In this document: positions 634 through 22,837 of the stretch, piece by piece | How the letters are laid out: each line of letters opens with the position of its first letter | Numbering within the stretch: position 1 is the stretch's first letter | IMG/VR virus record: IMGVR_UViG_3300032241_002751 | Location: 1 to 23,107 of that record | DNA: 23,107 nucleotides | Source of the DNA: a virus | Strand: one strand, 5' to 3' | Program-made: the position numbers and the translations under genes | Notes under the pieces: model-generated | What the model saw: only the letters and a program-made list of their open reading frames with translations | Told to the model about the DNA's origin: nothing | Database searches by the model: none

Positions 634-1992
634 ATGGTAAAGGTTATTGTTGCTAAAAATAAAATTGATTGTGAACATTTGCTTGGCACGTTTGTTGATG
701 CTTCGAGTTATGATATTCTAATTGAAGAAGATACTGATTGTTATATGCCAGCAACTTGCGACGTTGCGCAAAAGGCTAATTGTGGCGGCGATTGTGAAAA
801 CTGTTCTAAGGGAACAGATGAACGTCGTATTGCTTTCAAGTTCAGGAAGAATTATTTTTCTAAAAAAGAACAGGATATGGCATATGCTGGCTTGCGCGAA
901 GCTGCAACCGAAAGTCAAAATCGTGGTATTGCTGCTGGTCCTCGTGGCGAAATGCTTGGCGCAGAAGGTCGTGGTGGTAGGGATTGGGTAACTTCATATC
1001 AATTAGAAGTGCTTGATTATCTTCTAAACAAGAGCGCACGAATTATTGACGACGTTTCAGTTGAAAGTATTCGTGAAAAATATAAAAACGGCGATCCTAA
1101 GAATAATGATGAAACTCGTGGCCAAGTTTGGCTACGATCAGAAGTTTGTAAAATTTATCCAGAATATCATGGATGGTTTGATAAGTGGGTCGATGGTTTA
1201 AGTAATAAGCCAAACGATGTTGTTGTACAAGAAGCAACTAAGGTTGCAGAAAAATGGATTTCAACAACCAACTATGCTAAAACAGTTTGGTCTGGAGTTG
1301 CCGGATGGTATGATCGTTACCCGAGAATCCCATATGGCCGAGCAACATCATATACTGAAAAGAATCCAGAAAAGTTTGCTATGGCTTATCCCTTCCTTCA
1401 AACCCTTAACAAGGGATTCAAGGAATTACTTCCATGGAGATGGGGCAATCAAAAGGAAGCAGCAGATAAGCTTGATCCTCGGTTCTTAGTTCCTGATACT
1501 GTATTTACAACAATTACAGTTAATAAGTCATTTAGAACTGCATGTCATCGTGATGCCGGTGACTTAAATGATGGTCTTTCAAATCTGCTAGTTCTTGGCG
1601 ATGGCGAATATACTGGCGGTTATCTTGTATTTCCAGAATACAGGGTTGCTGTTAATGTTCGGCCTGGAGATTTGTTACTTGTTAATAATCACGAGATTAT
1701 TCATGGTAACACAGAAATTAAGTTGAATCATGAAAAGGCTGAACGTATTTCACTTGTTTGTTATTTCCGAGAAAAGATGCTAGAACTTAAGAATTGGGAA
1801 TATGAAAATCTACGTAGGCAGTATGTAGATGAACGGCGACGTAATAAAGACCATAAATTATGGCGACCTTTGTGGAATGGTATTAGTCCGGGTATGTGGG
1901 ACGAACAAGAATGGTTTGACTATATGGCAAAGCATAATATGCCAGATCCATATGCAAAGGCTCCTGTTGCAAGTCTAGATGCATTTTTCTAA
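634..1992 (+). CDS. TET/JBP-family 2-oxoglutarate/Fe(II) dioxygenase (DNA pyrimidine hydroxylase)
   Basis: This 452-residue protein resembles phage TET/JBP dioxygenases, which hydroxylate the 5-methyl group of thymine or 5-methylcytosine in DNA. The double-stranded beta-helix core lies at about residues 285-385. It has the iron ligands H305-x-D307 in FRTACHRDAGD, a distal His in NNHEIIHGNTE (H353 or H358), GGYLVFPEYRVAVNVRPGD between them, and R371 in ERISLVCYF as the likely 2-oxoglutarate anchor. The N-terminal part has a Cys cluster (C36, C42, C50, C54, C57) that could bind zinc, followed by the clade-typical NRGIAAGPRGE segment. The start has a strong ribosome binding site (TTAAGGAG). Its stop overlaps the next start (TAATG). 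No C5-cytosine methyltransferase is in this window, so the substrate could be thymine or 5-methylcytosine. Family assignment is firm; substrate is not. Confidence 0.88.
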   Translation: MVKVIVAKNKIDCEHLLGTFVDASSYDILIEEDTDCYMPATCDVAQKANCGGDCENCSKGTDERRIAFKFRKNYFSKKEQDMAYAGLREAATESQNRGIAAGPRGEMLGAEGRGGRDWVTSYQLEVLDYLLNKSARIIDDVSVESIREKYKNGDPKNNDETRGQVWLRSEVCKIYPEYHGWFDKWVDGLSNKPNDVVVQEATKVAEKWISTTNYAKTVWSGVAGWYDRYPRIPYGRATSYTEKNPEKFAMAYPFLQTLNKGFKELLPWRWGNQKEAADKLDPRFLVPDTVFTTITVNKSFRTACHRDAGDLNDGLSNLLVLGDGEYTGGYLVFPEYRVAVNVRPGDLLLVNNHEIIHGNTEIKLNHEKAERISLVCYFREKMLELKNWEYENLRRQYVDERRRNKDHKLWRPLWNGISPGMWDEQEWFDYMAKHNMPDPYAKAPVASLDAFF

Positions 1993-2672
1993 TGTGTGGT
2001 GTTCTTGGTATTATTATCAAGGATTTTAACGAAAAAGATCATGATTTAATTCGTGGTCTTTTTATTCAATCCATGATTCGAGGGAAACATGCTACTGGCG
2101 TTTCCTATATAAAAAATAATAAAGTAAACACAATAAAGGAGTCAATACCATCTGATAAATTTATTGACAAACAAAATTTAAATACATGGAAAAACGAAGA
2201 TGGAAATCTTTATTGTATTGGTCATATTCGTTACAGTACTTCAGACCTACGTTATAATCAGCCTTTTGCAACCGATAAGATAGGTATTGTCCATAACGGT
2301 GTCATATCTCAAGAACCTTCTAATACATGGTTTGAAACTTTCGGTTATAAAACAGAAACAGAAAACGATTCTGAATTAATTCTTCATATGATAGAAGATA
2401 ATAAGAACCCCTTACAATACCATAACACAAGTATGGCTGTATGCGCCTTGTTTAAAGATAAACGTTTATTGGCATTTCGAAATCATGAAAGACCTCTTTA
2501 CTATTATCAGGATACAAAAACAGTAATTTTTGCATCAACAAAAGATATTTTAAAGCGCACAGGATTTAAAACAGCAACTAAAACAGAAATGTATAAAATT
2601 TATAATGTAAATAATTTTGAACTGACTATCACACGTTCAGAACCAAAAGTTAATATTGAGGACTTGCAATGA
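1992..2672 (+). CDS. Stand-alone class II glutamine amidotransferase (Ntn glutaminase domain)
   Basis: This 226-residue protein consists only of a GlmS/PurF-type glutaminase domain, which releases ammonia from glutamine using an N-terminal cysteine. Met1 is followed directly by Cys2 (MCGVLGI). Further family motifs are RGKHATGVS (30-38), GHIRYSTS (77-84, with R80), HNGVI (101-105) and ENDSELI (124-130, with D126). There is no synthase or isomerase domain attached, so the ammonia acceptor must be handled by a separate protein. The amidoligase encoded next, overlapping by 4 bases, is the obvious partner. The start overlaps the dioxygenase stop (TAATG), which indicates translational coupling. 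In this neighbourhood it plausibly supplies nitrogen for an amino- or amide-containing DNA base modification, but modification of a protein or cell-wall peptide is also possible. Confidence 0.85.
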   Translation: MCGVLGIIIKDFNEKDHDLIRGLFIQSMIRGKHATGVSYIKNNKVNTIKESIPSDKFIDKQNLNTWKNEDGNLYCIGHIRYSTSDLRYNQPFATDKIGIVHNGVISQEPSNTWFETFGYKTETENDSELILHMIEDNKNPLQYHNTSMAVCALFKDKRLLAFRNHERPLYYYQDTKTVIFASTKDILKRTGFKTATKTEMYKIYNVNNFELTITRSEPKVNIEDLQ

Positions 2673-3544
2673 AATACAATATTAAAGATTTCACATGGGG
2701 TTATGAAATTGAATGGGGAGATATTCCTAGGAATGAAAATATCCCAGAACATCTTGGTAAATGGGAATATGCAGAAACGGATATTGTAAATCTTATTAAA
2801 CCATACCGTGGTCTTGCTTGCGATCCTCTTGGTATTGATCCTCCAGTTGGAGGAGAAATTAATACTAAACCAACTAAAACTTGGGAAGAGCAAGTAGATC
2901 GTATAATGGAAATTAAAAAGTTATTTAAACATCCTACTGCTTCATGCGTTAATCATGGCCATCTTCATGTATATGTTCCTGGGTTAAAGGACGATATCGA
3001 ATCTTTAAAAAAGATTATCAAATACATTAAAGAAAATCAACATCAAACTATTGATGCTTGTTATCAATACCGAGTCCACCCAGATATGTCTCTTTCGAAA
3101 ACGGCTAAGACTTATTTGAAATGGGATGGCGGACGACCTATGCCTGATTATATGTGTGATAATATTGTCAATAAAGCTAATAACTTTGACGATTTTATTC
3201 GATTACATGCAGCAGGTAAAGATGGCGTGTCTATGGGCCGACCTTTTCGACATGCAATAAACACATATTGTATGAAGCATACTGGAACTATTGAATTTCG
3301 TTGTTTTAGATCCTCAACAGATTCTAGAGAAATATTTGATTCTTTTAGATTCGTCGCTGAATTTATGAAAGCTGCACTAAACGATGGTCCTCCAGTTAAT
3401 GAAATTTTAAGAAAGGGACAGTTTGTGTTTCCTACATTTACATATGACAGTGAAATGTATATTGCATGGGAAAAAACAAAGTATGATAAATCAAGGGGAA
3501 ATAAAAAAAGAGAATACCATGATGTTAAAGAAAACATCACGTGA
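2669..3544 (+). CDS. GCS-like amidoligase (Amidoligase_2 family, COOH-NH2 ligase)
   Basis: This 291-residue protein matches the pattern of amidoligases related to gamma-glutamylcysteine synthetase, which join a carboxylate to an amine using ATP. Visible motifs are GYEIEWGD near residue 11 (paired Glu at 13 and 15), GGEINTKPT (61-69), HGHLHVYVPG (96-105) and GTIEFRCFRSS (206-216). These are the expected metal and nucleotide-binding strands in the expected order. The gene starts in an ATGA overlap with the glutamine amidotransferase stop, so the two are likely made together and may act as an ammonia-using pair. The 3' end overlaps the acetyltransferase start by 26 bases. Its substrate cannot be read from sequence. 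A contribution to an amino-acid-like DNA base adduct is inferred from the flanking dioxygenase, kinase and pyrophosphorylase-like genes. Confidence 0.8.
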   Translation: MKYNIKDFTWGYEIEWGDIPRNENIPEHLGKWEYAETDIVNLIKPYRGLACDPLGIDPPVGGEINTKPTKTWEEQVDRIMEIKKLFKHPTASCVNHGHLHVYVPGLKDDIESLKKIIKYIKENQHQTIDACYQYRVHPDMSLSKTAKTYLKWDGGRPMPDYMCDNIVNKANNFDDFIRLHAAGKDGVSMGRPFRHAINTYCMKHTGTIEFRCFRSSTDSREIFDSFRFVAEFMKAALNDGPPVNEILRKGQFVFPTFTYDSEMYIAWEKTKYDKSRGNKKREYHDVKENIT

Positions 3545-4055
3545 AGAATTTAAAAAATTTCTTACTACATTAAAATCGGATAATTTTTCGAAAACATTTA
3601 TCGCTAAATGTGATATGATGGATGCTTGGGATAAATGTATAGGTTATTGGATCGGCGACGAGTTAGCAGGTGCTATTGTTGTAACAATTTCAAAAAAATC
3701 ACCTACAGTTGCCAATCTTCAATTATTGCATACATTTTCTAAATTTAGAGGCAAGGGCGTAGGTAAGTTACTTTGTAACTGGGCGTTGTCATATGCTCTT
3801 GAACAAGGTGCAAAATATTTTCGTGTATCTGCCGAATTTGATGCAGTTGAATTTTATGAAAAATGCGGTTTTAAATTTGTTGGTAGACAAAAAACTGCTA
3901 AACTTTCAATGTTTTGTTTGACAGATAAAATCGTTTCTAACAATAGTTTTGAACCTGATGAATTTATCTGGAAAGCAATAAATAAAAAAGGTAAAGGATC
4001 GTGTGTTGAATGTTATGTTGAATATCAAGGCGTCTACAAATATACAACAAACTAG
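3519..4055 (+). CDS. GNAT-family N-acetyltransferase
   Basis: This 178-residue protein carries the acetyl-CoA binding motif of GNAT enzymes, RGKGVGK (77-83, the R-x-x-G-x-G/A loop), preceded by a beta strand (NLQLLHTFSKF). It also has the family's late FYEKCGFKFVG signature (112-122). GNAT enzymes move an acyl group from CoA to an amine. I placed the start at ATG 3519 (or 3522), inside the end of the amidoligase gene; the frame is open further upstream, but that part reads as out-of-frame amidoligase sequence. The stop is TAG at 4053-4055, so TAG works as an ordinary terminator in this genome. The next gene starts 52 bases before this stop. In context it could acetylate the amine added to a modified base; a protein substrate is equally possible. 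Confidence 0.8.
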   Translation: MMLKKTSREEFKKFLTTLKSDNFSKTFIAKCDMMDAWDKCIGYWIGDELAGAIVVTISKKSPTVANLQLLHTFSKFRGKGVGKLLCNWALSYALEQGAKYFRVSAEFDAVEFYEKCGFKFVGRQKTAKLSMFCLTDKIVSNNSFEPDEFIWKAINKKGKGSCVECYVEYQGVYKYTTN

Positions 4056-5022
4056 AAAAAAAGATTTTATAAATTGGTATAAATGGTCGTTGTCTATTAA
4101 AGATTGCGATCCTTCTATTTTTATGACTAACTATTTGTTTGATAGATTTGAACATAATAAGGAACAAAAATTATGGATTTCTTGGATTTATGGAACAACA
4201 TATTATTTTCCAACAACATGGATTATTTGGAACGAATTTCCAGATATGGAACTTGTTGGCCTTGAACGATTAAGAGAATGGAACAACAATAATTACAAAA
4301 GGCTCCGCTATCAAACTGATACTAAATGGAATAAAGGTCATCTTCCGGCCCAGTTTGAATCATATAAAAATTGGGTAGGAAATAAAACTCAACGAGAAGC
4401 ATTTAGTCCTTTCCTTGTCAATACGCCAAGAGAAAATTTTGAAAATCTCTGGTCGGAAATAAAAACAAAATTCCACAAATTTGGTCGCTATTCGACTTGG
4501 TTTTATATGCAAACGTTGAAACAGTGTTGCGATATGCCAATTGACCCATCACATTTAATGTTGAGTGATTACGAAGGTAGTCGTTCTCATCGCAATGGTC
4601 TTTGCATGGCGCTTGGCCTAGATGATTGGTATGATAAAAAACTTAATAAACAAGAGATAAATTATCTAGATGGTCAAGCTTATTATATATTGCAAGAAGT
4701 AAAACAAGATTTTCCTAATACAGATTATTTTGATATGGAAACGTGTCTATGTAGTTTCAAAAAACTTTTTCGTATTAAAAAAGGAAGATACTTAGGATAC
4801 TATCTTGATAGACAAGCAGAAGAAATTAAACAATGTGAAAATGATGGATGGTATGGTATAGATTGGCAACCACTTTGGGATGCAAGGGCGGAAATTTTGG
4901 ATAAAAAGTTGTTGACTAATAATATAAATAATAGTAAAATGGAGTTATATACCAAGTATAACATTTTAGATTGCACTGGCCTTTTTGAACAAAAAAATAA
5001 TTTAGAATATTTTATGGAGTAA
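4003..5022 (+). CDS. Alpha-glutamyl/putrescinyl-thymine pyrophosphorylase-like protein (DNA-glycosylase-related fold)
   Basis: I recognise this 339-residue protein as resembling the phage aGPT-pyrophosphorylase clade. These glycosylase-derived enzymes are thought to replace the pyrophosphate on 5-hydroxymethyl-dU in DNA with an amine such as glutamate or putrescine. Characteristic stretches are GRYSTWFYMQTL (161-172), SRSHRNGLCMALG (193-205), ETCLCSFKKLF (246-256) and RYLGYYLDR (262-270). The start is uncertain. GTG 4003 is 4 bases after an AAAGGA ribosome binding site, TTG 4006 is 7 bases after it, and ATG 4015 is 16 bases away; residue numbers here use 4003. The gene overlaps the GNAT gene and is followed 2 bases later by the kinase, its expected pathway partner. 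The family call rests on remembered motif layout, not on a search. Confidence 0.78.
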   Translation: MLNVMLNIKASTNIQQTRKKDFINWYKWSLSIKDCDPSIFMTNYLFDRFEHNKEQKLWISWIYGTTYYFPTTWIIWNEFPDMELVGLERLREWNNNNYKRLRYQTDTKWNKGHLPAQFESYKNWVGNKTQREAFSPFLVNTPRENFENLWSEIKTKFHKFGRYSTWFYMQTLKQCCDMPIDPSHLMLSDYEGSRSHRNGLCMALGLDDWYDKKLNKQEINYLDGQAYYILQEVKQDFPNTDYFDMETCLCSFKKLFRIKKGRYLGYYLDRQAEEIKQCENDGWYGIDWQPLWDARAEILDKKLLTNNINNSKMELYTKYNILDCTGLFEQKNNLEYFME

Positions 5023-5024
5023 TT

Positions 5025-5558
5025 ATGAAAATTATTGCAATCGGTGGTGAGCCAGGCGCAGGTAAAACTTCGCTGATGAAAAAAATTATAGAAAAATATA
5101 AAATGCTTCCTGCATACGAAGCTTTTAAATTAGTACCATATCTCAATAAAAACAATTATTACGTTCTTGGTAAATATGAGCAAAATGAAGTTTTTGCTGG
5201 CACTGATCGTATGAGCATGGCAGTGCAGCCAGAAGCCAAAAAGTTTCTTTCTAGTTTACCAGAAAATTCTATTGTTCTATTTGAAGGCGATAGATTATTC
5301 AATTCTTCTTTTTTAGAAATGTGTGTCGAATTATATGATACTAAAATTATCTATCTGAAAACATCAAAGAACGTAAGACAAGAAAGGTATGAAGAAAGAA
5401 AAAGCAATCAAAACGAAACTTGGTTGCAAGGTAGAGAAACTAAAATATCAAATATATTGTCTAATATTCAATTGATGTTTAATATTGAGAGTTATGAAAA
5501 TAATAATTTAGAACAACAATCTAAATTAGTGGATATTATATCCGGTTATATGGAGTAA
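5025..5558 (+). CDS. P-loop kinase, probable hydroxymethyl-pyrimidine DNA kinase type
   Basis: This 177-residue P-loop NTPase begins MKIIAIGGEPGAGKTS, with a Walker A motif at about residues 7-16. Downstream are GTDRMSMAVQPEAKKFL (about 63-79) and IVLFEGDRLFNSSFL (about 87-101). The EGDR in the second Walker-B-like strand and the conserved GTDR loop resemble the phage base-modification kinases that phosphorylate 5-hydroxymethyluracil in DNA before pyrophosphorylase-type transfer. A ribosome binding site (GGAG) lies 6 bases before ATG 5025. The neighbouring aGPT-pyrophosphorylase-like and TET/JBP genes support this reading. A small-molecule or nucleoside kinase is the main alternative, because the P-loop alone does not set the substrate. 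Confidence 0.75.
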   Translation: MKIIAIGGEPGAGKTSLMKKIIEKYKMLPAYEAFKLVPYLNKNNYYVLGKYEQNEVFAGTDRMSMAVQPEAKKFLSSLPENSIVLFEGDRLFNSSFLEMCVELYDTKIIYLKTSKNVRQERYEERKSNQNETWLQGRETKISNILSNIQLMFNIESYENNNLEQQSKLVDIISGYME

Positions 5559-11035: not shown

Positions 11036-11191
11036 ATGTCAATTATTAATAAAATTGCAAATTGGCTAGACCGCCAATCCCAAATCAAAAAAGCAGTACG
11101 AGAACTTTCTCGAATGACTGACAGAGAACTAGCCGATATTGGAATTTCTCGTACAGACATTATTAGAGTTGCACGAGAGGCGAATACATAA
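11036..11191 (+). CDS. DUF1127 (YjiS-like) small protein
   Basis: This 51-residue protein begins at the base right after the hsp20 stop. Its C-terminal half, AVRELSRMTDRELADIGISR followed by DIIRVAREA, is the DUF1127 signature, a short Arg-rich helical motif abundant in Alphaproteobacteria. Some cellular DUF1127 proteins are stress-induced and have been linked to RNA binding and turnover; the phage protein might steer host RNA, which is inference. The stop overlaps the start of a 16-codon ORF (TAATG). Confidence 0.85.
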   Translation: MSIINKIANWLDRQSQIKKAVRELSRMTDRELADIGISRTDIIRVAREANT

Positions 11192-11919: not shown

Positions 11920-11967
11920 TAGCGGTTTGTGGGCCGAAAAGGCCGAACGCGCAGAAAGGATTTCATC

Positions 11968-13422
11968 ATGTTCTATACAAACGTATTCATCCGCGGAGAT
12001 TTCATTTATCTCCGCGGATTCGATAAGGGTCTTCGAATCAAGGAAAAGATAAATTATAAACCATATGTTTTTATTCCAAGTAATAAAGGAAATTATAAAA
12101 CATTACAAAACAAGTCTGTTGATAAACTTGTATTTGATAGCATTAAAGATGCAAAGGGGTTTATTGAAAAGTACAGCGAAGTTTCCAATTTTGAATTTTA
12201 TGGATTAACAGGGCCAAACTTCAAGTATCTTTATATTTTCGATAATTTTAAAGGTGATATTGATTATGATCCTCAACTAGTCAAGGTAGGCACATTAGAT
12301 ATTGAGTGTGCTGCTGACGAAGGGTTTCCTAGTATTGAAAGAGCAGATAAGCCTCTGACTGCTATTACTATTCGTAGCAGAGGTAGAAATTATGTATTCG
12401 GTTGTGGAGATTTTAAGTCCAATGATCCCAATACATATTATCTAAAGTGTAAAGATGAACATGATCTAGTTCAGAAGTTTATTGATGCATGGGAAAAGCT
12501 AGACCTTGATATTGTCACAGGTTGGAACATTGAGTTTTTCGATATTCCTTATCTTGTCAATCGCATCAAGCTTCTGTTCGGCGAAGCTCATGCCAAGCGA
12601 CTATCACCATATAAAATACTCGATTCTAAAATGATAGAGTTTCGTGGTAAGGAAAATCAAAGCTATTCTCTGGCAGGGATAGCAGTGATGGATTATTATC
12701 AACTTTATCGTAAGTTTACTTTCGGTAATCAGGAAAGTTATAAGCTAGATTATATTGCTCAGGTTGAACTGGGCGAGAACAAGATTGACTATTCTGAGTA
12801 TGGTAATCTATTAGAACTGTATAAGAAAAACTTTCAGAAGTTTATTGAGTATAACATTCATGACTGTGTTCTGGTTGATAGACTTGATGATAAGATGAAG
12901 TTTATTGAACAGGTCATGGCCATTGCATATGATGCCAAGGTTAATTATGAAGATACTATGACCACAGTTAAACCTTGGGATATTATCATTCATAATTATT
13001 TGCTTGAAAGGAATATTGTTATTCCGCAGTTTGAACCTTCTCATGAAGATTTCGAACTGGTTGGCGGTCATGTTAAGGAAGTTAATCCAGGGTTATATAA
13101 GTGGGTTGTAAGTTTCGATCTTAACAGTCTATATCCTCATCTTATTATGCAATATAATATTAGCCCAGAAACGTTTGTTAATAGGATTGAATTTCCATCA
13201 ATTGACTATTTGCTTAATGGTACATGGGAATATCGTGATGGTTCAGTAGCATATGCTGCCAATGGATGCACATATAGAAAAGACAAGCAGGGCTTTCTTC
13301 CTGCTCTGATGGAAAAGATGTATAATGATCGTGTTGTCTATAAGCAGAAAATGATTGAAGCTAAGAAAGAACTTGAAGAAATTGAAAAAGAAATGAAAAT
13401 TCGTGGATTATTGGCTAATTAA
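11968..13422 (+). CDS. 43: DNA polymerase gp43, N-terminal part (exonuclease domain and motif A)
   Basis: This 484-residue piece holds the N-terminal, 3'-5' exonuclease and first palm portions of a T4-like family B polymerase. The start at ATG 11968 (MFYTNVF) has GAAAGGA upstream; an in-frame ATG at 11929 lies in the leader. Exo I is LDIECAADE (D111, E113; T4 has D112, E114). Exo II is VTGWNIEFFD, Exo III YNIHDCVLVD, and motif A SFDLNSLYPHL with D384. The frame ends at TAA 13420-13422, a few codons after the lysine/glutamate-rich helix KELEEIEKEMKIRG. Motifs B and C are encoded downstream, beyond an insertion. As in some Aeromonas T4-like phages, the polymerase might function as two chains, but the second part has its own defect. 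Confidence 0.93.
   Translation: MFYTNVFIRGDFIYLRGFDKGLRIKEKINYKPYVFIPSNKGNYKTLQNKSVDKLVFDSIKDAKGFIEKYSEVSNFEFYGLTGPNFKYLYIFDNFKGDIDYDPQLVKVGTLDIECAADEGFPSIERADKPLTAITIRSRGRNYVFGCGDFKSNDPNTYYLKCKDEHDLVQKFIDAWEKLDLDIVTGWNIEFFDIPYLVNRIKLLFGEAHAKRLSPYKILDSKMIEFRGKENQSYSLAGIAVMDYYQLYRKFTFGNQESYKLDYIAQVELGENKIDYSEYGNLLELYKKNFQKFIEYNIHDCVLVDRLDDKMKFIEQVMAIAYDAKVNYEDTMTTVKPWDIIIHNYLLERNIVIPQFEPSHEDFELVGGHVKEVNPGLYKWVVSFDLNSLYPHLIMQYNISPETFVNRIEFPSIDYLLNGTWEYRDGSVAYAANGCTYRKDKQGFLPALMEKMYNDRVVYKQKMIEAKKELEEIEKEMKIRGLLAN
11989..12019 (+). repeat. Perfect 12-base stem within the first codons of gp43
   Basis: ATCCGCGGAGAT (11989-12000) and ATCTCCGCGGAT (12008-12019) are perfect complements around a 7-base loop (TTCATTT). 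The stem starts 21 bases after the A of the ATG and is very GC-rich for this genome. In mRNA it would be a strong hairpin just inside the ribosome footprint, suited to translational control. No T run follows. Confidence 0.8.
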
Positions 13423-13439
13423 AATAACAATTACCAATA
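13409..13439 (+). repeat. Hairpin at the gp43/insertion junction
   Basis: TATTGG-C-TAATT (13409-13420) pairs with AATTA-CCAATA (13429-13439): 11 base pairs with a single bulged C and an 8-base loop. The gp43 stop codon TAA (13420-13422) lies at the loop edge. It marks the boundary where polymerase-like sequence gives way to endonuclease-like sequence. Confidence 0.55.
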
Positions 13440-13745
13440 GCTCAACAAAATATTCAAATAGCTATCACTAAAAATAGAGGAAGAAAACGACCAAAACATT
13501 CTGAATTTATGTCAAAATATTTTTCCGAATTTTGGAAAAATAATAAAGAAAAAATGCGAGATGCATTATCAACAACTTTTCAAGCAATTTCACCAACAGG
13601 AGAAATTTATCTAACAAATAGATTACAAGAATTTTGCGAAAATAAAAATTTAAGTTATAGTACTTTATGGACTACAAGTAAAACTGGTATTACACCCAAA
13701 AAAGGGAGAAGTAAAGGATGGTTATGTCGAAACTTAGCGCCTTGA
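13428..13745 (+). pseudogene. Homing endonuclease remnant (C-terminal DNA-binding part only)
   Basis: The frame is open from 13428 (after TAA at 13425) to 13745. It encodes NRGRKRPKHSEFMSKYF, a NUMOD3-like motif of GIY-YIG/HNH homing endonucleases. A stretch SPTGEIYLTNRLQEFCENKN followed by LSYSTLWTT and ending SKGWLCR matches their NUMOD1-like helix-turn-helix tail. No nuclease domain (GIY-YIG or HNH) precedes it, only about 15 codons without a start, so the element is truncated; the internal ATG 13509 would give a 78-residue fragment. It sits inside gp43 between motif A and motif B and overlaps the resumed polymerase frame by 22 bases. Intron-less insertion of a free-standing endonuclease, now decayed, is the simplest reading. 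Confidence 0.72.
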
Positions 13746-14821
13746 GAAAGGAGGAGCTTATTGCGCGCCGTGAGCAGTTGATTAAGGATGTTGCTCGCTA
13801 TCAAAATCTTCAGATGGCGAAAAAAATCCAACTCAATTCTGCTTATGGCGCTCTTTAGCTTGGTAATAGATACTTCCGTTGGTTCTCATTCAATAATGCG
13901 GAGGCTATTACAACTTCAGGTCAGCTTTCTATTCGTTGGATCGAAAGAAAGATGAACAAGTTTATGAATAAAATTTGTAAAACTAAAGATGTAGATTATG
14001 TAATTGCATCAGATACAGATTCTATCTATGTTACTTTTGCTAATCTGATACCTGATAACTCAGATGAACTAGAAGCTGTTAAGTTAATTGATAACTTCTG
14101 TGAAAAATATATTCAATCATATATTGATAAATGTTATGATGAACTTGCGGGTATGATGAATGCATATCAGCAGAAGATGAAGATGAAGCGCGAAACTATC
14201 GCAAATAAGGGCATCTGGAAAGCTAAGAAGATGTATATTCTAAATGCCTGGAATATCGAAGGTGTACAGTTTGATAAACCTAAGTTAAAGATTCAAGGGA
14301 TTGAAGCAGTTAGAAGTTCAACTCCACATGCTTGCAGAGAAAACATCAAGAACTCTCTGTCTATCATGATGAACGAAAACCAAGAAACTCTGATTCAGTT
14401 CATTGAAAAATTCAAGAACGAATTTATTAATCTCTCGTTTGAAAATATTGCATTTCCAAGAGGAGTAAAGGGTATTGGGAAATATAAAGATTCTGCATTA
14501 ATTTATAAAAAGGGAACTCCTATTCATGTTAAAGGAGCGTTATTGTTTAATAACATGATTAAAAAGTTAAACATAAAAAGTATCCCACCAATTTCTGATG
14601 GCGATAAAATTAAATTCGCATATTTAAAGATACCAAATCCCATACAGGATACTGTTATTTCAACGCCAGATGAATTGCCAAATGAACTAGGACTAGATAA
14701 ATATATTGACAGAGACAAGCAATTTGATAAATCATTTCTTGAACCAATTAAATCTATTGCTAATATTATTGGTTGGGAAGTTGAACACAAATCAACTTTG
14801 GAAAGTTTTTTCGATGGTTAA
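13724..14821 (+). CDS. 43: DNA polymerase gp43, C-terminal part (motifs B and C), with in-frame TAG at 13856
   Basis: Frame 2 resumes polymerase sequence from ATG 13724, which has AAAGGA 5 bases upstream. MSKLSALRKEELIARREQL leads to the motif B region MAKKIQLNSAYGAL. A TAG (13856-13858) follows, then CTT and GNRYFRWFSFNNAEAITTSG, normally contiguous with SAYGAL. Motif C is IASDTDSIYV (DTD at 14012-14020). The thumb follows, ending KSTLESFFDG, which resembles the clamp-binding tail of gp43. Without the TAG the two parts total about 850 residues (T4 gp43: 898). The next start after the TAG, ATG 13952, would lose part of the palm. Either the stop is read through or bypassed, or this is a broken gene or sequence artefact. 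Confidence 0.8.
13853..13861 (+). other. CTT-TAG-CTT site inside polymerase motif B (possible ribosome hop)
   Basis: A stop codon is bracketed by two identical Leu codons, exactly between the Leu of SAYGAL and the Gly of GNRYF. Removing six bases (TAGCTT or CTTTAG) restores the family's unbroken motif. Matched take-off and landing codons around a stop are the arrangement needed for a peptidyl-tRNA hop. Whether it happens is unknown. Confidence 0.45.
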
Positions 14822-18826: not shown

Positions 18827-18968
18827 AAGAGTTTAAATGTTTGAGTAGTAATACTCAAGAGGCAATGCGCATTTTGGATAATTTGCACGGAATAGCTGGG
18901 ACCAACAGTGGGGTTCTGCCCAGCACATTTAAGCTGTTTTAAAGGTGGAGCATGCTCCACCTTTTTTT
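18827..18968 (+). ncRNA. Candidate noncoding RNA, about 140 nt, family not recognised
   Basis: No convincing ORF fills 18813-19005. The region instead has its own promoter box and terminator. It contains a perfect 7-bp hairpin with a GTAA (GNRA) tetraloop (18841-18858), a GCTGGG/CCCAGC stem (18895-18900 with 18919-18924), and a possible closing AAATG/CATTT pairing (18835-18839 with 18870-18874). A competing CAGC/GCTG pairing (18921-18924 with 18933-18936) would disrupt the second stem. GC content is higher than in nearby intergenic DNA. It does not look like a tRNA, and I do not recognise a known riboswitch or sRNA family. It may be a free small RNA or, if termination is conditional, a leader of the late operon. 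Confidence 0.6.
18941..18968 (+). terminator. Rho-independent terminator ending the noncoding RNA
   Basis: AAAGGTGGAGC (18941-18951) pairs perfectly with GCTCCACCTTT (18954-18964), and the T run continues to 18968. This is an 11-bp stem with a very short apparent loop, probably 4 bases in practice. It closes the structured region just before the next late promoter. Confidence 0.93.
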
Positions 18969-18972
18969 ATTT

Positions 18973-18980
18973 TATAAATA
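18973..18980 (+). promoter_or_regulatory. T4-type late promoter box of the head-protein operon
   Basis: TATAAATA, exact T4 late consensus, lies directly after the terminator and 25 bases before the ATG at 19006. It would drive the four coupled genes and the virion gene that follow. Confidence 0.7.
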
Positions 18981-19005: not shown

Positions 19006-19638
19006 ATGATAAAATTCAAAGAACTAATTCTTGAAAACGTAAAAGAGCCAAATCCAAGAGCAATACATTATTTTGATTTGGACGATACTTTATTTTCACA
19101 TGATAATCATAAATTGCGTGTTCATGTTTTAGATCAACATGGCAGAAGAGTTCGTTCTCTGACAAATCAAGAATATAATACGCACCAATTGCCTGATAAT
19201 CATTCATATGATTATAGAGAATTTCGTAATTCTGATTTGTTTGGAGAAACAGCCAAACCAATTAAAAAAACATTATCAAAGCTTAAAGCTTTACAAAAAA
19301 ACGGACATAAAGTTGAGATATTAACTGCTAGACAAGACTTAGATGACAAAGATCGTTTTGCCCATCATATGAAAAAATTCGGCGTTGATATAGATCAAGT
19401 TCATGTAAGAAGAGCAGGTAATTTACCAGGCAAAACTCCTGATGCAAAAGCCTCTGTTGTTCGTGATGCAATTAATAGAAACGGTCATAACGAAGTTCAT
19501 TTATATGACGACTCTCATGAAAATTTAAATAAATTTTTAAGTTTGAAACGTGAACATCCAGAAGTAGAGTTTAACGCTCATCATGTTCAACATGATCCAG
19601 AAACTGGAAAAGTTGCAATTACTACAAGGAAAGTATAA
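19006..19638 (+). CDS. HAD-superfamily phosphatase with capsid-targeting-like N-terminus
   Basis: This 210-residue HAD phosphohydrolase has motif I FDLDDTLF (nucleophile D24, acid D26), motif II ILTARQ (105-110), a basic loop around K143/K148 and the closing acidic motif LYDDSHENL (166-174). Phage HAD proteins of this size include 3'-phosphatase domains of polynucleotide kinases and nucleotidases; the substrate cannot be fixed. The N-terminus MIKFKELILE fits the pattern (M, F at 4, [I/L]-x-E at 8-10) shared by the next three genes, which resembles T4 internal-protein targeting peptides cut by the prohead protease. It is translated late from the 18973 promoter, and its stop overlaps the next start (TAATG). 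Confidence 0.82.
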   Translation: MIKFKELILENVKEPNPRAIHYFDLDDTLFSHDNHKLRVHVLDQHGRRVRSLTNQEYNTHQLPDNHSYDYREFRNSDLFGETAKPIKKTLSKLKALQKNGHKVEILTARQDLDDKDRFAHHMKKFGVDIDQVHVRRAGNLPGKTPDAKASVVRDAINRNGHNEVHLYDDSHENLNKFLSLKREHPEVEFNAHHVQHDPETGKVAITTRKV

Positions 19639-20978
19639 TGTTAAAATTTATAGAATATATAATTGAAAGCAAAGGCGCTTCAACTGCATTTTCCGGCCAT
19701 GCTAACGAACATTTCACACATGCTTTATTAAAAGAATATATCAATCATGTATCTAGGTCTTTAAAAAAAGGTTTAGATTATGATGCAGCGCATGAAGCTG
19801 CGCTTAAACACATGAATAATATTAAATATGAAAAGCATGCAGATATTCCAGAAGTACAAAACTCTCGTCAGTCTTTAGGCGATGATGAGATGTCTGCCAT
19901 ACATAACGACTCTAAAAAAACAGCAACTGCTCTTTTAAACCATATCAAAGACAATTATGGTCATGCTGTTGAAGATTCTTATCATACTGGAAAAATTGGT
20001 CCAAAAGGAGTTAAAGACTTAACTGGCGGTCAAGGTTCTGAGGCTGATATTTTATTGAAAACTAGATCGCCACAGGGTCAACAAGATACAGCTAAAGCTA
20101 TATTAGAACATATTGGTTCTTCTCTAAAATATTCAAAGGCTAAAACGAATCAAATTAAAATTCATTCTCCAACTATAAACAAAATGGCAGAAATAATAGA
20201 TGCGCATCATAAAGCTATGCATGGTAATAGTTCGGGAATACATGAAATATTGAATAATATAGGAAAAGAAGGTATTGCCGCACAAAGAGCAGCTCTTGCA
20301 AAACATCATAATGTACTTTCTGAATATTTTAACAACGCAAAAATACCAAAAATGACATATGCGCCTGTTACAGATGAACATGGTAATATAACTGGCGGCG
20401 CTTTATCACAGGATGCAGTAAGTCATATTAGAGATAGTAAAGATCCTAGATTACAAGCAGCCTATGCAGATATGTCTGCAGAAAATCTTAAAATGAAAAC
20501 TAAAATAGCAGCTACGCTTCATAATGCTATGGCAAATGTTTTAGATCATCGATCTAACGATCCAAATCATGCTGCAATAAAAGAATCATTGTTAAGATCA
20601 ATGGGCAATCTTAAAACGGATAAGCTTCCAACCTTTTTAGTTTCAACAGAAAGAAATAAACCACGAGCATCAATTTATGATACAGGCAATTTTTTTACAC
20701 AACATTTAGCACATAATGGTACAGATCAACATAATTACACAGGAAAATCTACGTTCACAGCAGGTCCCCTTTCATTTGCATTAGATGCAAGACCAACGAC
20801 AAGTAAACCCCCTATTACAAGTTTTCCGATAAACACAACGATTAATGTGTCAGACATTAAAAAAGGATTTGATACGCCTAAAGAAAAATTACCAAAACAA
20901 CAAAACCCAACAACACCGCCACTAAGTAATGATGGTACTCATGGAGGACCAATGTTTAAAGGACCATTAGATGCATAA
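19638..20978 (+). CDS. Virion-associated protein of unknown function, possible PD-(D/E)XK nuclease-like fold
   Basis: This 446-residue protein carries the shared N-terminal motif MLKFIEYIIES. A region GQGSEADILLKT (132-142) followed by SSLKYSK (161-167) resembles the D-x(n)-[E/S]-x-K core of PD-(D/E)XK nucleases, with N-terminal helices containing E24 and H25. This is a weak pattern match and could be wrong. The middle is helical, rich in Ala and His. The C-terminal third is Pro/Thr-rich and low in structure (KLPKQQNPTTPPLSNDGTHGG). It overlaps the next gene by 8 bases. Packaging in the head is inferred from the N-terminus. Confidence 0.65.
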   Translation: MLKFIEYIIESKGASTAFSGHANEHFTHALLKEYINHVSRSLKKGLDYDAAHEAALKHMNNIKYEKHADIPEVQNSRQSLGDDEMSAIHNDSKKTATALLNHIKDNYGHAVEDSYHTGKIGPKGVKDLTGGQGSEADILLKTRSPQGQQDTAKAILEHIGSSLKYSKAKTNQIKIHSPTINKMAEIIDAHHKAMHGNSSGIHEILNNIGKEGIAAQRAALAKHHNVLSEYFNNAKIPKMTYAPVTDEHGNITGGALSQDAVSHIRDSKDPRLQAAYADMSAENLKMKTKIAATLHNAMANVLDHRSNDPNHAAIKESLLRSMGNLKTDKLPTFLVSTERNKPRASIYDTGNFFTQHLAHNGTDQHNYTGKSTFTAGPLSFALDARPTTSKPPITSFPINTTINVSDIKKGFDTPKEKLPKQQNPTTPPLSNDGTHGGPMFKGPLDA

Positions 20979-22185
20979 TTTTTTACAATATTTGACAGAA
21001 GCTGAAGAACAAGAAAAAGGCAAAGCATTAAAACATTTAACACATGTTGAGGATTATGTAATACATGGAGGTCATGAAGGTGTTGCAACTGCAGATCATC
21101 ACCTCCAATCATTACACAATATGTTGCTTGGTAAAAATGCACCAGTTCATGTATCAACTAAATGGGACGGTGCACCGTCAGTAGTTTTTGGACAACACCC
21201 ACAAACAGGTCAATTTTTTGTTGCATCTAAATCTGCTTTTAATAAGACGCCGAAAATAAATTATACCGATGAAGATATTGAAGCCAATCATGGTCATGCT
21301 CCAGGGTTAGTTGAAAAACTAAAAGCGGCGCTACGTTATTTACCTTCAATTATGCCACGTAACGGCGGTGTATATCAAGGCGATTTACTTCATACAGAAG
21401 GCGATGCCAAAACAAAAGGCGGAATGACAAGTATAACGCCTAATACCATTACATATTCAGCCCCAGAAGAATCTGCTGAGGGTCAAAATATGCATAAAAA
21501 ATTAGGAATTGTTGTACATACCAAATATTCAGGTCGCGGCGGTTTAGAAAATTTATCTGCTGGGCCTCTTGATGATAAAACAAGAGCTAAATTTGGCGAA
21601 CATCCGGATGTTAATAATGTTGATCCAAGCGTCCAAGTTAATCCTTCTAACTATACTCCAGAAGAACAAAGACAATTTTTAGAGCATATGGAAAATGCTC
21701 GTAGATCTTATGGGAGAATGGCGCCCGAAGCTATGGATGCTATAGCAGGCCATGGAACTTCTTTAGAAGCTCATATCAATGATATGGTAAGAAAAAGTGG
21801 TGCTCCATCTGTCCAAGGTTATATAGATCATCTCACAGATAAACATAATAAAGAAATATCAAAATTAAAAACTCAAAAATCAATTGATCTAAGAAATCAG
21901 CAACATGAAGCTGTTATTAGGCATATTATTGAAAATCAAAAACATTTTAAAGATGCATTAGATTTACATGGTCATTTACAAAAAGCTAAAAACGTTTTGG
22001 TTGGCGTAATGGCTAAAAATAACCCTTATCATCATAGCGTTGCAGGGCGACCAACTGATCCAGAAGGCGCAGTTGTTGTTGATAAAAATGGTAATATGAG
22101 CAAGTTTGTAAATAGAGATGAATTTTCAAAATTAAATTTTCTAAAAGGCCAATTCCAAAAACAAAAAGCAGAAGAAAATGCTTAG
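20971..22185 (+). CDS. Ligase-like nucleotidyltransferase protein (KxDG motif; DUF6267-like)
   Basis: This 404-residue protein contains the active-site motif of ATP-dependent DNA/RNA ligases and capping enzymes, KWDGAPSVVFG (K64 as likely AMP-accepting lysine). Other expected elements are SKSAFNK (about 86-92), VYQGDLL (134-140, motif III-like), GIVVHTKYSG (179-188), and near the C-terminus EGAVVVDKNGN (365-375, motif IV-like) with SKFVN (377-381, motif V-like). A helical insertion occupies about 215-340. The N-terminus MHNFLQYLTEA has the shared capsid-targeting-like pattern with LTE at 8-10. It overlaps genes on both sides by 8 bases. Whether it joins nucleic acid is unproven; related phage proteins are mostly unannotated. 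Confidence 0.72.
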   Translation: MHNFLQYLTEAEEQEKGKALKHLTHVEDYVIHGGHEGVATADHHLQSLHNMLLGKNAPVHVSTKWDGAPSVVFGQHPQTGQFFVASKSAFNKTPKINYTDEDIEANHGHAPGLVEKLKAALRYLPSIMPRNGGVYQGDLLHTEGDAKTKGGMTSITPNTITYSAPEESAEGQNMHKKLGIVVHTKYSGRGGLENLSAGPLDDKTRAKFGEHPDVNNVDPSVQVNPSNYTPEEQRQFLEHMENARRSYGRMAPEAMDAIAGHGTSLEAHINDMVRKSGAPSVQGYIDHLTDKHNKEISKLKTQKSIDLRNQQHEAVIRHIIENQKHFKDALDLHGHLQKAKNVLVGVMAKNNPYHHSVAGRPTDPEGAVVVDKNGNMSKFVNRDEFSKLNFLKGQFQKQKAEENA

Positions 22186-22837
22186 ATTTAAATATTTTTT
22201 CTTAAAAGAAGAACAGGAAGTACATCATGATATAACCTTTATGAGAGGCAATCCTATTCATATAGGACATCAAACAGTTGTAGATCAAGTTGTTAATTCC
22301 GCCGCCAATCATGGCGGCGGACATACTGTTTATTTAACTCGCTCTCATGACCATAAGAAAAACCCCTTGACGCCTGAACAAAAACTTCAATATGCTAAAA
22401 TGGCATTTCCTAATGCTAATATTGAATTGACTTCTCCTGATGCTCCAACGATATTGCATCAAGCTTCGAAATTACATGGTCAAGGCGTTAACAATTTACA
22501 TGTTCATGTTGGTTCTGATAGAGTTGAACAATTCAGACAATTACTTTCACATTATAATGGCCAAAGAGGAAATCATGGTTTTTATAAATTTGATAGTATC
22601 AATGTTTATCCAGTAGGATCAGAAAGAAGCGATGAAGATGAAGGAGTTGCAGGTGCATCAGCAACAGCAATGAGAGATGCTGCGCAAAGAGGAGACAGAG
22701 AATCTTTCTATGCTATGGCGCCAACAAATTTAACAGCAGATCAAAAAGAACAAATGTTACAAGACACAGCTGCAGGTATGGTTCCGCCGCCAAAGCCTGT
22801 AAAACAAGTTAAAGAAACCCCTATTAGGAAAAAATAA
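22178..22837 (+). CDS. HIGH-motif nucleotidyltransferase (NMN adenylyltransferase/cytidylyltransferase-like)
   Basis: This 219-residue protein has the nucleotidyltransferase signature FMRGNPIHIGH (21-31). It also has LTRSHDHKKNPLTPEQKLQYAKMAFP after the second strand, HVHVGSDRVEQF (108-119) and the late SATAMRDAA (161-169, equivalent to the family ISGTxMR). Such enzymes join NMN, pantetheine phosphate or similar to a nucleotide; an NMN-adenylyltransferase-like role in NAD metabolism is one option. The N-terminus MLRFKYFFLKEE carries the shared motif with LKE at 9-11. The C-terminal tail (PPPKPVKQVKETP) is Pro/Lys-rich and disordered. The stop is one base before the next ATG. Confidence 0.78.
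   Translation: MLRFKYFFLKEEQEVHHDITFMRGNPIHIGHQTVVDQVVNSAANHGGGHTVYLTRSHDHKKNPLTPEQKLQYAKMAFPNANIELTSPDAPTILHQASKLHGQGVNNLHVHVGSDRVEQFRQLLSHYNGQRGNHGFYKFDSINVYPVGSERSDEDEGVAGASATAMRDAAQRGDRESFYAMAPTNLTADQKEQMLQDTAAGMVPPPKPVKQVKETPIRKK

Follow-up and report, generated by a model that had tools for sequence, protein, structure and literature searches.

Four consecutive enzyme-like genes in a 23,107-base fragment of a T4-like phage (the full IMG/VR record IMGVR_UViG_3300032241_002751, hereafter the window, meaning the whole stretch analyzed) encode proteins that all begin with a short leader of the kind carried by the internal head proteins of T4. We consider it probable, at roughly four in five, that these leaders mark the four enzymes for packaging in the head, cleavage and delivery into the next cell. 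Packaging and cutting are the best explanation of the leaders; that these steps and injection take place in this phage is something we infer from the genomes and from what is known of relatives.

The island occupies positions 19006 to 22837, at the end of a gene order that runs clamp, clamp loader, polymerase, UvsX-like, gp41-like, and then four overlapping open reading frames (ORFs) on the plus strand, coupled by stop/start overlaps (TAATG, ATGCATAA and ATGCTTAG). Gene starts are predictions from simple ORF calling. The first gene (19006..19638) encodes a HAD-family phosphatase of 210 amino acids that begins MIKFKELILE (19006..19035), with a predicted cut after E10. The second, gene B (19638..20978), a PD-(D/E)XK-like putative nuclease of 446 amino acids, begins MLKFIEYIIE (19638..19667), and the F at position 4 is invariant in alignments of its family. 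The third (20971..22185), a DUF6267 (PF19782) protein of 404 amino acids with an RNA-ligase-like predicted fold, begins MHNFLQYLTE (20971..21000), and its YLTE/AE resembles the FLTE/AE site of T4 gp23. The fourth (22178..22837), an NMNAT/cytidylyltransferase-like nucleotidyltransferase (NTase) of 219 amino acids, begins MLRFKYFFLKE (22178..22210), which is one residue longer and has its predicted cut after E11; the longer form also occurs in a relative, locus L007, as MLKFKQFILKE. A preliminary description of this DNA had reported these four beginnings, and the ORFs and leaders are where it placed them. Phenylalanine occupies position 4 in all four, and [I/L]-x-E falls at residues 8-10 in three leaders and 9-11 in the fourth. 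Its statement that no further gene in the window starts this way also holds, as 4 of 35 ORFs match and all are in the island.

The T4 internal proteins IPII and IPIII start MKTYQEFIAE, and IPI starts MKTFKEF, in the T4 record. The first ten residues of IPIII are enough for packaging, and in the T4 leader residues 4 and 7 matter for targeting and residues 8 and 10 for processing (PMC9026906, a review). The window leaders agree with the T4 leader at positions 4, 7, 8 and 10, the fourth with one extra residue before the E. A strict pattern for this capsid-targeting sequence, M..[FYW]..[hydrophobic][LIVF].E, was built on IPII and IPIII (IPI, with its longer leader, would itself fail it) and matches the first three leaders; the fourth matches a relaxed form. 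The comparison set comprised the window and 62 related viral loci, fetched via DUF6267. Of 576 non-redundant plus-strand ORFs with a length of 60 amino acids or more, 55 start with the strict motif and 22 others with the relaxed form, counts to be taken as effect sizes given that the relatives are non-independent samples. When residues 2-20 of the same 576 ORFs were shuffled in 1000 rounds, there were on average 0.39 strict matches, with a maximum of 4. The strict pattern occurs at 2 of 2786 internal methionine positions and at the start of none of the 48 minus-strand ORFs. The shared leader is thus far beyond chance.

The logo of the tagged starts reads M-[LK]-[STKN]-F-[KS]-[EQND]-[FY]-[LI]-x-E. 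Positions left free by the pattern are also T4-like, with K or L at position 2, S, T, K or N at position 3, and E, Q, N or D at position 6. Information reaches 3.9 bits at E10 and is at most 0.8 bits from residue 11 onward, so that conservation ends at residue 10, which is the predicted cut.

What follows the leader varies widely. With their first 14 residues removed, the tagged proteins (strict and relaxed) fall into 28 single-linkage groups, several of which are small, rest on relaxed matches and may be chance; a safe statement is that the leader is common to more than a dozen unrelated families. L007 has five consecutive tagged genes. One relative, L006, is ~98% identical to the window on both flanks of the second gene, but encodes a different, almost unrelated protein in its place; the replaced segment starts 12 nt inside the start codon and ends ~90 nt short of the stop. 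This substitute protein begins with a fitting leader of its own, MLKFSDYLIE, where the window has MLKFIEYIIE. In this swap the protein changed and the leader motif was kept. The swap left a shared tail: the last ~30 residues of gene B (20890-20978) recur almost unchanged in the L006 protein (IPKQQNPTTPPL.NDGTHGGP), which otherwise differs. Elsewhere, DUF6267 and NTase are fused, and these fusions have a single leader, at the N-terminus; in the three tagged cases in which the point of fusion could be placed, no leader motif was found there.

The island also appears to have its own transcription signals. An intrinsic-terminator-like hairpin (18941..18964, plus strand; AAAGGTGGAGCATGCTCCACCTTT followed by a T run, 10 pairs) closes the upstream unit, and an exact match to the T4-type late promoter TATAAATA (18973..18980, plus strand) lies 33 nt upstream of the ATG of the first leader. 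In the window alone, late-promoter octamers are no commoner than expected by chance (5 versus 4.4), and it is their position that is telling: in most relatives an exact TATAAATA copy precedes the first tagged gene by 31-43 nt. Where a gene is preceded by 40 nt or more of intergenic space, an exact copy lies 20-60 nt upstream of 19 of 23 tagged genes versus 13 of 158 untagged genes. Full-length relatives have the element in front of their capsid protein, scaffold-like and sheath genes, and by promoter position the island would be transcribed late, with the head genes. The predicted processing machinery is also present in the group. Of ten relatives or reference records, eight encode a gp21-type prohead protease (PF03420) and the other two are incomplete, and the capsid proteins of the relatives have LTE where T4 has its FLTE/AE site.

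Further evidence comes from mass spectrometry of purified cyanophage particles. Homologues of the fourth protein have been reported in virions of S-SM1 (T4-GC190; PMC3037559), S-SCSM1 (ORF91; PMC9602691), S-SZBM1 (S-SZBM1_140; PMC9146016) and S-CREM2 (ORF154; PMC10665884). We noted that all four begin with a leader of the same type: MKKFSAFLNE, MKSFLQFLKE, MRFRQFIIE and MKNFSSFLTE, respectively. The relevant passages of these papers do not report a leader on the NTases. All three strict-motif genes of the S-CREM2 genome (SAM hydrolase, ORF136 and the NTase) are in its virion list. The virion-reported SAM hydrolase (S-CREM2 gp6; L102, 3837-5081, minus strand) has the leader MKDFDSFLEE. Overall, strict-motif genes were detected in virions in 3 of 3 cases for S-CREM2, 1 of 1 for S-SCSM1 and 0 of 2 for S-SZBM1, or 4 of 6 together (P = 0.014), for three phages that were picked through their NTase. 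In a homology search, the tagged proteins of the window's clade match five S-SCSM1 or S-CREM2 proteins, of which four were detected in virions and the fifth is DUF6267. A tagged protein of genome G006 (L088, 9197-9922; MLNFGNYLSE) is 48% identical to S-CREM2 ORF156, which is reported in virions.

So, are these leaders capsid-targeting sequences, as the preliminary description proposed? The match to T4 at the functional positions, the sharing of the leader by unrelated proteins, the conservation boundary at the predicted cut, the late promoter, the protease and LTE site of the relatives, and the tagged NTases in four cyanophage virion proteomes all support that reading. Several observations weigh against it. 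All of the virion evidence comes from cyanophages rather than from the window's clade. Once the NTases are excluded, 2 of 4 strict-motif genes are detected (P = 0.16), and the small strict-motif ORFs SSZBM1_14 and SSZBM1_191 are missing from the S-SZBM1 virion proteome. There is no virion report for homologues of the HAD phosphatase, gene B or DUF6267, which leaves the NTase as the sole family of the four with homologues detected. The S-SZBM1 DUF6267 protein has no leader, and untagged DUF6267 is absent from the virion lists of S-SZBM1, S-SCSM1 and S-CREM2. In the relevant passages of two of the four papers, the authors leave it open whether such proteins are virion cargo or co-purifying contaminants. 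After the predicted cut the four cargo proteins (24-49 kDa) would have isoelectric points (pI) of 9.0, 9.1, 7.3 and 7.0, so that two of the four would be near neutral, unlike the basic T4 proteins. Finally, the window is a 23-kb fragment without head genes, and the protease and capsid cut site are seen in relatives only.

Four other explanations were weighed. The leader could target the proteins to the prohead and be cut there, with the proteins then staying as core or structural components or being lost, without injection. The sequence evidence speaks to targeting and cutting only, which leaves room for this idea; however, T4 proteins with such a leader are both packaged and injected (PMC9391042; PMC12373910), and the island proteins keep the enzyme motifs DLDDT, KWDG and HIGH, which structural filler would not need. 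We regard it as unlikely. A second possibility is that the leader is a by-product of recombination, in which a mobile cassette of promoter and start region brings along the first codons and packaging plays no part. The late promoter adjoining the first gene and the L006 breakpoint 12 nt inside gene B fit such a cassette. However, genes 2-4 lack individual promoters, their leaders differ in DNA and protein yet keep positions 4, 7, 8 and 10, the conserved stretch stops at the cleavage position and not at a DNA boundary, and tagged NTases are reported in virions, which together make this explanation very improbable.

It is also hard to credit that the leader docks somewhere other than the prohead, such as on the sliding clamp, the polymerase or a membrane. 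The peptide is aromatic and amphipathic-helix-like, and the island comes after replication genes, but those adjoining replication genes lack the leader, the leader is associated with late promoters, and the match to a characterized capsid leader includes the cleavage residues. Chance or compositional bias, which might seem plausible in an AT-rich genome whose proteins abound in F, I, K and L, is refuted by the 55 starts observed versus 0.39 after shuffling and by the scarcity of the pattern at internal methionines.

If the leaders are capsid-targeting sequences, genes 19006-22837 would constitute a late-transcribed operon of cargo enzymes, each with a leader like those of the T4 internal proteins. 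As the head assembles, this leader, with its aromatic residue at position 4 and aromatic or hydrophobic residue at position 7, would bind the prohead core, and the gp21-type prohead protease would cut after [LI]-x-E. The mature proteins would begin NVKEPN, SKGAST, AEEQEK and EQEVHH. The cargo would then remain inside the head alongside the DNA and be delivered to the next host before phage gene expression begins.

The preliminary description had also guessed at the identity of the cargo, and here the support is uneven. The call of a HAD phosphatase is well founded, with the DxDxT motif (DLDDT at 24-28) and HAD profile both present: the first protein (pI 8.9) matches Pfam Acid_phosphat_B at E 7e-7, above the Pfam cut-off, and PHROG 415, polynucleotide kinase, at E 2e-8. 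The fourth protein likewise looks like a nucleotidyltransferase, as proposed, with HxGH (HIGH at 28), [ST]x[ST]xxR (SATAMR at 161) and a match to PHROG 3041 (E 6.5e-45). The suggestion of a ligase-like third protein is strengthened. It matches Pfam DUF6267 at E 4.5e-90 and has motifs I (KxDG) and IV (EGxV) of the ATP-dependent RNA ligase superfamily (KWDG at 64 and EGAV at 365) in invariant or near-invariant columns. Its AlphaFold model has a predicted local distance difference test (pLDDT) score of 87, with residues 1-21 below 50 and disordered. RNA ligases fill the top of the VIA-align ranking, with a best Z of 8.5 over 180 residues at 9% identity; a Z near 8 is by itself not strong, but the ranking is uniform in favoring ligases and agrees with the invariant motifs. 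A Foldseek search against the PDB gave nothing below E 0.001 (best weak match, E 0.13). The ligase call is made because of the VIA-align ranking and the motifs, and ligase activity is a prediction. The possible nuclease is moderately supported. In distant relatives of gene B, D137 and S162-x-K164 are invariant and E28 is near-invariant, and these E/D/S-x-K residues fit PD-(D/E)XK, as does an hhalign probability of 85% (E 6e-6). The alpha-beta-beta-beta-alpha core expected of such a nuclease is putative; the AlphaFold model (pLDDT 43) is too poor for structure search.

Other searches added little. Sequence searches of a phage collection with the HAD and gene B proteins gave no match, scans of IMG/VR with HAD, gene B and NTase gave no match or L006 only, sequence searches of the PDB with HAD, DUF6267 and NTase gave nothing useful, and PADLOC found no convincing defense family. 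A tagged 577-amino-acid protein of L007, considered as a possible ADP-ribosyltransferase, is unsupported as such; Pfam gives HEAT repeats only.

The closest known system is that of T4 IPI, IPII and IPIII. As here, a ten-residue leader with an aromatic residue at position 4, an aromatic or hydrophobic residue at position 7 and [IL]8-x-E10 is common to otherwise unrelated proteins encoded in hypervariable gene slots. The T4 internal proteins are small and basic and inhibit type IV restriction enzymes, whereas the proteins considered here are four larger enzyme-like proteins, encoded downstream of gp41 in a single late operon, and their phage is related to Kyanoviridae, not to T-even phages. T4 Alt, an injected ADP-ribosyltransferase, is a precedent for an enzyme that is packaged, processed by gp21 and injected, although its enzyme family is unrelated to those of the island. 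The cyanophage virion NTases of S-SM1, S-SCSM1, S-SZBM1 and S-CREM2 are homologous to the fourth protein and have the same leader, but the cyanophage DUF6267 lacks one. A HAD phosphatase together with an RNA-ligase-like fold also recalls T4 RNA repair (PseT phosphatase and the Rnl1 and Rnl2 ligases), although these enzymes have negligible sequence identity to the island proteins, whose enzyme activity is predicted. PseT, Rnl1 and Rnl2 are not known to carry a leader in T4. More distantly, ejection proteins of phiKZ-like phages and SPN3US have N-terminal propeptides cut after x-x-E by a gp21-related protease, but most of these exceed 100 residues and are cut at S/A-x-E (PMC5694885).

Elsewhere in the window, positions 634-5558 encode what looks like a DNA hypermodification pathway (Tet_JBP oxygenase, glutamine amidotransferase, amidoligase-like protein, GNAT, ADDT amino acid:DNA transferase and P-loop kinase). 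In T4, DNA modification goes together with injected proteins that inhibit type IV restriction enzymes (PMC12373910), and the hypermodification-like genes and tagged island may parallel this arrangement, a likeness that is suggestive only. The DNA polymerase frame (11929-14821) is in pieces between ~13422 and 13952, which may be a sequencing error or a real interruption; in L009 and L012 the polymerase is one frame of ~825 amino acids. A DUF1127 protein (11036-11191; E 1.4e-12) belongs to a family common in alphaproteobacteria and may hint at the host. Several relatives encode, downstream of the island, short untagged proteins that by eye are Dps/ferritin-like (L009, 15660-16106; L021, 13166-13603; L028, 8794-9228).

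The leader is a known kind of tag, and no earlier description of an enzyme island tagged in this way appears to exist for these phages, judging from open-license papers: within that literature, capsid targeting is treated together with cyanophage only in one T4 review, and nothing was found on DUF6267. A phosphatase paired with a ligase is reminiscent of RNA end repair, and an NMNAT of NAD restoration; more speculatively, the cargo may repair or protect nucleic acid or cofactors as infection begins. Tentatively, and leaning slightly towards doubt, we suggest that T4-like phages of fresh and marine water load a variable enzyme kit, the NMNAT-like proteins of cyanophage virions included, by means of one exchangeable leader, and that this kit acts before phage gene expression, for example in tRNA repair or NAD restoration after host defense.

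The findings suggest that delivery before gene expression extends beyond small inhibitors to enzymes. The leader on the S-CREM2 SAM hydrolase would make that protein an injected anti-restriction enzyme. Leader-directed packaging would also explain why related enzymes recur in purified cyanophage particles, and so offers a mechanism for the recurring proteomics puzzle of whether NMNAT-like enzymes in virions are cargo or contaminant. The ten-residue pattern provides a way to find injected proteins straight from the genomes of T4-like phages far from T4.

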